Assembly: GCF_000284095.1 (NCBI RefSeq)
Contig: NC_017068.1
Coordinates: 1,984,001-2,048,000 of the forward strand
Origin: Selenomonas ruminantium subsp. lactilytica TAM6421
GTDB taxonomy: Bacteria; Bacillota; Negativicutes; Selenomonadales; Selenomonadaceae
Direction of reading: 5' to 3'
Length of the DNA: 64,000 nt
The position numbers were made by a program, and so were the translations under genes. The notes under the pieces were generated by a model, which was not told where the DNA came from, ran no database searches, and was given only the letters and a program-made list of their open reading frames with translations. Each line of letters starts with the position of its first letter. The stretch's first letter is position 1. Positions 50,627-51,202 of the stretch are shown here, piece after piece.

Positions 50627-50655
50627 TTGACGAAGGCCCGCCCTTCCACTATAAT
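50627..50655 (+). promoter_or_regulatory. promoter of the SpeD-like gene
   Basis: TTGACG (50627-50632), a 17-bp spacer and consensus TATAAT (50650-50655). It is divergent from the PBP1A gene. Confidence 0.85.
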
Positions 50656-50688
50656 GTATGTTATGACATTACGAAGGAGCGAGAAAGC

Positions 50689-51150
50689 ATGAAAATCTTA
50701 GCCCGTCATTTGACCGCGGATTTATTTAACTGCCAGAACAATCAGTTGAATGATAATGATCTCATTTTAGATATGCTCAAAAAGATTCTGCAGGATTTGG
50801 AGATAAAACTGATCAGTCATACCATTGAAACACCAGTCAACGACCACCATGTGTTTATGCTGATCCTCAACGAGGGACACATCACACTGCAGATTTATCC
50901 CCAGCTGAAATATGTGGCCATGGATATCTTCCTCTGCCAGGAAGATGCCGAACCGGATAAATTAGGCCAGGCTGTACGCAGTTTCTTCAAACCGGACAAG
51001 ATCAAGACCACCGTGCTGAAGCGCGGCGATTTCGGTACCGCCAAAGAACTCAAACCCAAAGTTAAGACCAAGGTTGCCCCCCTGCGCAAGATTCACAACA
51101 CCGGCGCCAAGGTCATCCGCATTCTGGCCCGCCGCAACAATTCGCAATAA
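50689..51150 (+). CDS. S-adenosylmethionine decarboxylase-like protein lacking the pyruvoyl serine
   Basis: The protein has 153 residues. The fold pattern of the small bacterial SpeD is visible: LARHLTADLFNCQNNQLND at the start, then the strand NEGHITLQIYPQLKYVAMDI and FLC. In active SpeD the middle reads ESHxxIHTWPE and the Ser becomes the pyruvoyl group. Here it is Glu62-Gly63-His64, so self-cleavage cannot occur, and the second conserved His is also replaced (LQIYP). The Cys of the DxFTC motif is kept. The C-terminus is basic (KPKVKTKVAPLRKIH). The gene has its own promoter, an AAGGAGCG site and a terminator, so it is expressed. Function unknown. Confidence 0.7.
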   Translation: MKILARHLTADLFNCQNNQLNDNDLILDMLKKILQDLEIKLISHTIETPVNDHHVFMLILNEGHITLQIYPQLKYVAMDIFLCQEDAEPDKLGQAVRSFFKPDKIKTTVLKRGDFGTAKELKPKVKTKVAPLRKIHNTGAKVIRILARRNNSQ

Positions 51151-51167
51151 TTTCATAGGCAAAAAAG

Positions 51168-51202
51168 AAGGTGCTGTTGACCATTCATCAACCAGCACCT
51201 TT
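51168..51202. terminator. bidirectional intrinsic terminator
   Basis: AAGGTGCTG-TTGA pairs with TCAA-C-CAGCACCTT around a short loop, with A-rich and T-rich flanks. It separates the SpeD-like gene from the convergent PAS-GGDEF gene. Confidence 0.88.

Follow-up and report, generated by a model that had tools for sequence, protein, structure and literature searches.

A SpeD-fold protein conserved across the Negativicutes and mostly lacking the pyruvoyl-forming serine

Here we describe SpeD-L, a relative of class 1b S-adenosylmethionine (AdoMet) decarboxylase encoded by 50689..51150 on the + strand of the window, by which we mean the whole 64,000-nucleotide stretch of Selenomonas ruminantium subsp. 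lactilytica TAM6421 DNA that was analysed. The protein has the SpeD fold, has lost the serine that forms the pyruvoyl group, is under strong purifying selection, belongs to a clade of its own and survives in genomes with no other AdoMet decarboxylase (AdoMetDC) or spermidine synthase. On balance we lean towards a pseudoenzyme, one that relies on its fold and basic tail in place of pyruvoyl chemistry, with the tail and the surface of residues 104-138 binding a partner, most likely a polyanion.

Gene, fold and active site

The 153-residue reading frame is intact and opens with an ATG at 50689, a start that is kept among orthologues. The original prediction had credited the gene with a near-consensus promoter, a ribosome site and a terminator, and each can be recognised: a sigma-70-like TTGACG-17-TATAAT (50627..50655, + strand; 11 of 12 matches), a Shine-Dalgarno-like AAGGAG read from the sequence (50674..50679, + strand; ATG 9 nt downstream), and a stable terminator-like hairpin with a U-rich run after it (51167..51202, + strand; -17.9 kcal/mol, z -4.3), though the last is absent from the output of a simple terminator scan. 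The hairpin is common to SpeD-L and the convergent GGDEF gene downstream of it; upstream, on the other strand, lies a gene for a class A penicillin-binding protein.

Three lines of evidence bear out the description of the product as SpeD-like. Pfam AdoMet_dc (PF02675) matches it with E=5e-20 and 72.2 bits against a cut-off of 25, which places it in the superfamily, and the NCBIfam SpeD equivalog model TIGR03330 reaches 66.6 bits, below its cut-off of 75.65. Alignment to Thermotoga maritima SpeD (1tlu), whose residue numbering we use throughout, is gapless (E=2e-11). The AlphaFold2 model of the Selenomonas protein (pLDDT 85.8) has as its best Foldseek matches the AdoMetDCs of T. maritima and Aquifex, with TM scores by target of 0.84-0.86, so that the structural comparison with T. 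maritima SpeD proposed at the outset comes out in favour of a common fold; a structure or alignment setting the protein outside the SpeD family, which would have overturned the proposal, did not emerge from any of the three. Further Foldseek matches include the prozyme complex and 3c6k, a chain of human spermine synthase. When a viral structure library was searched by fold, the top matches were ordinary SpeD-like proteins. A phage or plasmid origin was considered and rejected, the matches being weak, partial and to ordinary SpeDs, with nothing else found.

At the position of the pyruvoyl-forming Ser63 of T. maritima SpeD the protein has Gly63, encoded by GGA (50875..50877, + strand), as the sequence, the 1tlu alignment and the orthologues all indicate. 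Since GGA is two base changes from any serine codon, a single-base error does not explain it; residue 63 is, moreover, glycine in all 22 Selenomonas genomes, so that the serine-bearing orthologues that would have pointed to a sequencing error are missing from the genus. Glu62, His64, Arg112 and Cys83, a catalytic cysteine of SpeD (TGC, 50935..50937, + strand; kept here and missing from several other families), are unchanged, in agreement with the predicted Glu62-Gly63-His64 motif and downstream cysteine, and Ser55 and Glu72 are replaced by Val and Gln. One detail of the altered motif that had been described around His68 needs correcting: Gln68 is indeed found here (CAG, 50890..50892, + strand), but only this species and a small number of relatives have it, and it is atypical of SpeD-L, about 90% of orthologues having His68. 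Among Gly-type SpeD-L members Phe49 and Glu72, which we take to be AdoMet contacts of T. maritima SpeD, are not retained, which makes AdoMet binding less likely.

Ser63, His68 and Cys83 are essential for self-processing and catalysis in T. maritima SpeD (PMC10407285). Against the active class 1b pattern of Ser63 within Glu-Ser-His together with His68 and Cys83, the Selenomonas protein offers Gly63, Gln68 and a retained Cys83; it departs at the same two positions from SpeDA and SpeDC, pyruvoyl arginine and ornithine decarboxylases in which the cleavage serine, His68 and Cys83 are conserved (PMC10407285). Because Ser63 is absent, there can be no self-cleavage and no pyruvoyl group at that site, and the protein should remain a single chain, unable to carry out AdoMet decarboxylation in the established way. 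The claim that no pyruvoyl is made at the known site gains support from Gly63 throughout the genus, and SpeD-L very probably works by some means other than a pyruvoyl group.

Clade, conservation and the basic tail

SpeD-L is near-universal in the Negativicutes, that is, in Veillonella, Selenomonas, Sporomusa and their kin: it is present in 58 of 60 relatives, and a profile of 50 sequences finds it in 246 of the 252 class members searched. Applied to the other classes of the phylum, this profile returns mostly SpeDs of 125-140 residues, the best E-value at the class border stepping from 1e-44 to 1e-29, and the match stops at residue 113-125. For this reason the tail that begins at about residue 116 can be regarded as a property of the Negativicutes, within the part of the phylum that was sampled.

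To place SpeD-L among its relatives we used a tree of 80 diverse SpeD-L members and seven canonical SpeDs, from which columns 62-64 had been left out (149 columns); its starred branch parts all 80 from the canonical proteins. Residue 63 is Gly in 55 of the 80, Ser in 16 and another residue (C, T, A, H or F) in nine, and the Glu-Ser-His motif is retained in 10. On the tree these states imply at least seven changes between serine and another residue, and the alignment indicates that Ser63 is lost in several SpeD-L lineages; the exact count is unsure because 149 columns leave many inner forks open. In the most distant families, serine-bearing members have Glu62 replaced (by Asn, Asp, Gly, Gln or Arg) and Phe in place of Cys83. 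Within a single genus, two motifs are found side by side, His-Cys-His and Gln-Ser-His (L208 and L210; genomes G204 and G198), where loss of the cleavage site appears, from these sequences, to be still under way. With serine-bearing and serine-free members sharing one tail, the family offers a natural series on the change from enzyme to non-enzyme.

The sequence is under clear constraint. In pairwise comparison with five genus members dN/dS is 0.044-0.143 over the whole gene and 0.01-0.07 over residues 114-153 (51028..51147, + strand), which take in the basic Negativicutes-specific extension, the most constrained part within the genus. Together with the 246 genomes that carry the gene these values back the earlier claim that it is kept by selection, and, with glycine at residue 63 genus-wide, they also support the suggestion that an old enzyme has been converted to another use. 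Across the family the most conserved stretch is residues 104-123 (KIKTTVLKRGDFGTAKELKP; 50998..51057, + strand), in which mean pair identity peaks at 0.57. Asp11, Thr108, Arg112 and Pro123 are invariant in the 80 members and Cys15, His64, His68, Asp79 and Gly113 nearly so, His64 and His68 being conserved in about 90% or more and Cys83 in most. As the conservation of His64, His68 and Cys83 goes beyond what a pure scaffold needs, the old pocket may host a second chemistry.

The basic C-terminus noticed in the original prediction is real and is conserved as a class-specific extension. It spans about 37 residues with a median net charge of +10, the remainder of the protein having -2, and it contains the RGDF-x4-[DE]-[MIL]-[KR]-P core that marks SpeD-L. 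Models of the tail place a strand at 124-131 and a helix at 138-151 with modest confidence (mean pLDDT 59-73), and a deeper alignment brought no gain (pLDDT 59-73). A Pfam search with the Selenomonas tail gave no domain match, the tail of another member gave one insignificant Hfq-like match (E 0.1), and no second copy of the tail was found elsewhere in the genome.

Gene neighbourhood and polyamine pathway

Outside the Selenomonadaceae the usual neighbours of SpeD-L are fabK, an A-type flavoprotein gene and ctsR-mcsA-mcsB-clpC (L082-L099, L191, L192, L194). The ctsR cluster is only a few genes away, generally on the other strand, at 17 of the 20 loci drawn from other families in the relatives set and at 6 of 19 in a more distant one, and this deeply conserved neighbourhood is gone in the Selenomonadaceae. 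Judging from gene order, this looks like the ancestral place of SpeD-L, which would support vertical descent, and a functional tie to these neighbours may exist. Control by CtsR in common with the ctsR operon was considered and set aside: box-like sites stand near ctsR in some genomes and none stands before SpeD-L. No polyamine genes were seen beside SpeD-L at the loci examined in either set.

A search for a second, active speD, as had been recommended, found none in this genome by PF02675 or TIGR03331, that is, no other AdoMet_dc protein and no E. coli-type SpeD; in all 22 Selenomonas genomes the sole AdoMetDC homologue is a Gly-type SpeD-L. Elsewhere an E. coli-type SpeD occurs in addition in 29 of the 60 relatives (all 29 above cut-off), often near speE, and every genome checked whose SpeD-L retains Glu-Ser-His has a second AdoMetDC too, of E. 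coli type or short class 1b. Two genomes, G024 and G035 (99% complete), have SpeD-L and no SpeE, carboxynorspermidine decarboxylase (CASDC) or other SpeD; a third, G050 (100% complete), has SpeE and CASDC, yet no AdoMet_dc protein of any kind. These patterns uncouple the gene from the pathway: SpeD-L is not bound to spermidine synthesis.

The S. ruminantium genome contains an operon (G000:C1, ~2394.3-2401.2 kb; L108:2342-9165) for a PLP decarboxylase, SpeE, a carboxynorspermidine-synthase-like dehydrogenase (CASDH-like), CASDC, agmatine deiminase and N-carbamoylputrescine amidase. As read from its genes, this operon can give spermidine without an AdoMetDC, if the dehydrogenase and the decarboxylase act like their families. 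In G031 and in some other genera a like set of genes has an E. coli-type speD upstream of it, at the place where the S. ruminantium genome has a gap of ~780 bp. The Selenomonas SpeE (L108:6772-7668; G000:C1 ~2398.8-2399.7 kb, - strand) has altered pocket motifs, YHEM having become YNEM or YDEM, QxESP having become QxGSP and PSG having become PAG. Similar changes are seen in G030 and G050, likewise without a pyruvoyl-type AdoMetDC, and the motifs are unchanged where an AdoMetDC is present; the altered SpeE may take AdoMet itself or another donor.

Possible roles and known counterparts

The pseudoenzyme that we favour would have arisen as a paralogue of class 1b AdoMetDC, gained its basic tail before the Negativicutes radiated, and been handed on through the class as a core gene of the chromosome. 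It would act as a binding protein, probably homodimeric as T. maritima SpeD is, with the conserved 104-138 stretch and the cationic tail as its presumptive working surface. What it grips would most likely be a polyanion, whether RNA, DNA or an acidic protein, which fits with a basic C-terminus that the class has kept; going by charge alone, RNA is the kind of partner that we would guess at. In most members His64, His68 and Arg112 still line the old pocket, which may meanwhile hold a small regulatory ligand.

Perhaps the pocket instead supports a new, pyruvoyl-free activity through His64, His68, Asp79 and Arg112. The invariant and near-invariant residues of the 80 members speak for such an enzyme, but His64, His68, Asp79 and Arg112 are also residues of SpeD and may serve to keep the fold, His68 is replaced by Gln in the Selenomonas protein and missing in a few others, and Cys83 is missing from several families; we consider this reading unlikely. 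A part in CtsR/McsA/McsB/ClpC protein quality control, for example as an adaptor, draws on the proximity of that cluster at the 17 and 6 loci given above. The divergent arrangement, the frequent intervening genes, the loss of the neighbourhood in the Selenomonadaceae and the lack of a CtsR box before SpeD-L count against it, and a common ancestral place accounts for the proximity equally well, which makes such a part improbable. SpeD-L might also be an activator in the manner of the prozyme, or pair with some other polyamine enzyme as its dimer partner; precedents are known (PMC6221367, PMC5201418, PMC11203672), and both the prozyme complex and 3c6k are among the Foldseek matches. This reading is weakened, to the point where we think it slightly less probable again, because the presumed partners are absent from genomes that keep SpeD-L: no AdoMetDC is there to be activated in Selenomonas, G024 and G035 keep the gene without SpeE, CASDC or SpeD, and G050 has SpeE and CASDC without an AdoMet_dc protein. 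SpeD-L was, besides, not seen beside polyamine genes.

Peptidoglycan-bound cadaverine or putrescine is a trait that marks the Negativicutes (PMC10628300), and SpeD-L could conceivably be a class-wide regulator linked to it, sensing polyamines in the old pocket and acting through the basic tail. The support for it is a common distribution, which amounts to one evolutionary event, and we regard it as a long shot; in the window SpeD-L adjoins the class A penicillin-binding protein gene. That SpeD-L is still an AdoMetDC, or an arginine or ornithine decarboxylase, supplying the genome's SpeE by an unusual route might be argued from the presence of SpeE and the lack of another AdoMetDC. It is highly improbable, given that no pyruvoyl group can be made from glycine, that G050 has SpeE without any AdoMet_dc protein, that SpeE pocket motifs are altered in SpeD-less genomes, and that the operon supplies a CASDH/CASDC alternative. 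Nothing was found in favour of a pseudogene or a sequencing error beyond the loss of a catalytic residue, which is how decay looks early on; with an intact frame, dN/dS far below 1, glycine in independent genomes and two base changes separating the codon from serine, this explanation is almost certainly wrong.

Among known systems the nearest is class 1b AdoMetDC itself (T. maritima TM0655 and Bacillus subtilis SpeD; TIGR03330), with which SpeD-L shares the fold, gapless residues 1-115, Glu62, His64, Cys83 and Arg112. The Selenomonas protein differs in lacking Ser63 and Ser55, in having Gln68 and an extra basic tail, and in scoring below the TIGR03330 cut-off, and SpeD-L occurs alongside or without a canonical SpeD. 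SpeDA and SpeDC are likewise neofunctionalised SpeD homologues that may or may not have the normal spermidine partner next to them, but they retain the cleavage serine and use pyruvoyl (PMC10407285), whereas the protein described here has no such serine. The trypanosomatid prozyme is, like SpeD-L, a dead AdoMetDC paralogue under selection (PMC5201418, PMC6221367). It belongs to a different AdoMetDC class, however, and activates an active AdoMetDC, of which Selenomonas has none. The N-terminal domain of human spermine synthase, which has a SpeD-like fold (compare the Foldseek match 3c6k), also goes without AdoMet decarboxylation. This domain is dimerising (PMC11203672), and the C-terminal halves of SpeD-SpeDC fusions from Lentisphaerota, which are inactive, similarly combine a SpeD-like fold with lack of AdoMet decarboxylation (PMC10407285). 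Both are parts of larger proteins, in contrast to SpeD-L, which is free-standing and has a conserved tail of its own. In the literature searched, no free-standing, class-wide dead AdoMetDC relative of bacteria is described, and searches on SpeD in Negativicutes and on Veillonella essential genes returned nothing relevant.

Family models label SpeD-L as S-adenosylmethionine decarboxylase, an activity that most members cannot have by the known route. Where SpeD-L is the only 'speD' of one of these gut or oral bacteria, polyamine pathways that have been reconstructed automatically are probably wrong. G250, which we take to be the Veillonella parvula genome, carries both an E. coli-type SpeD (520 kb) and SpeD-L (1,188 kb); by position alone, Vpar_0438 is probably the former and not the latter. 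Under the name of 'AdoMetDC', Vpar_0438 has been found down 18-fold in coaggregation (PMC6529473).
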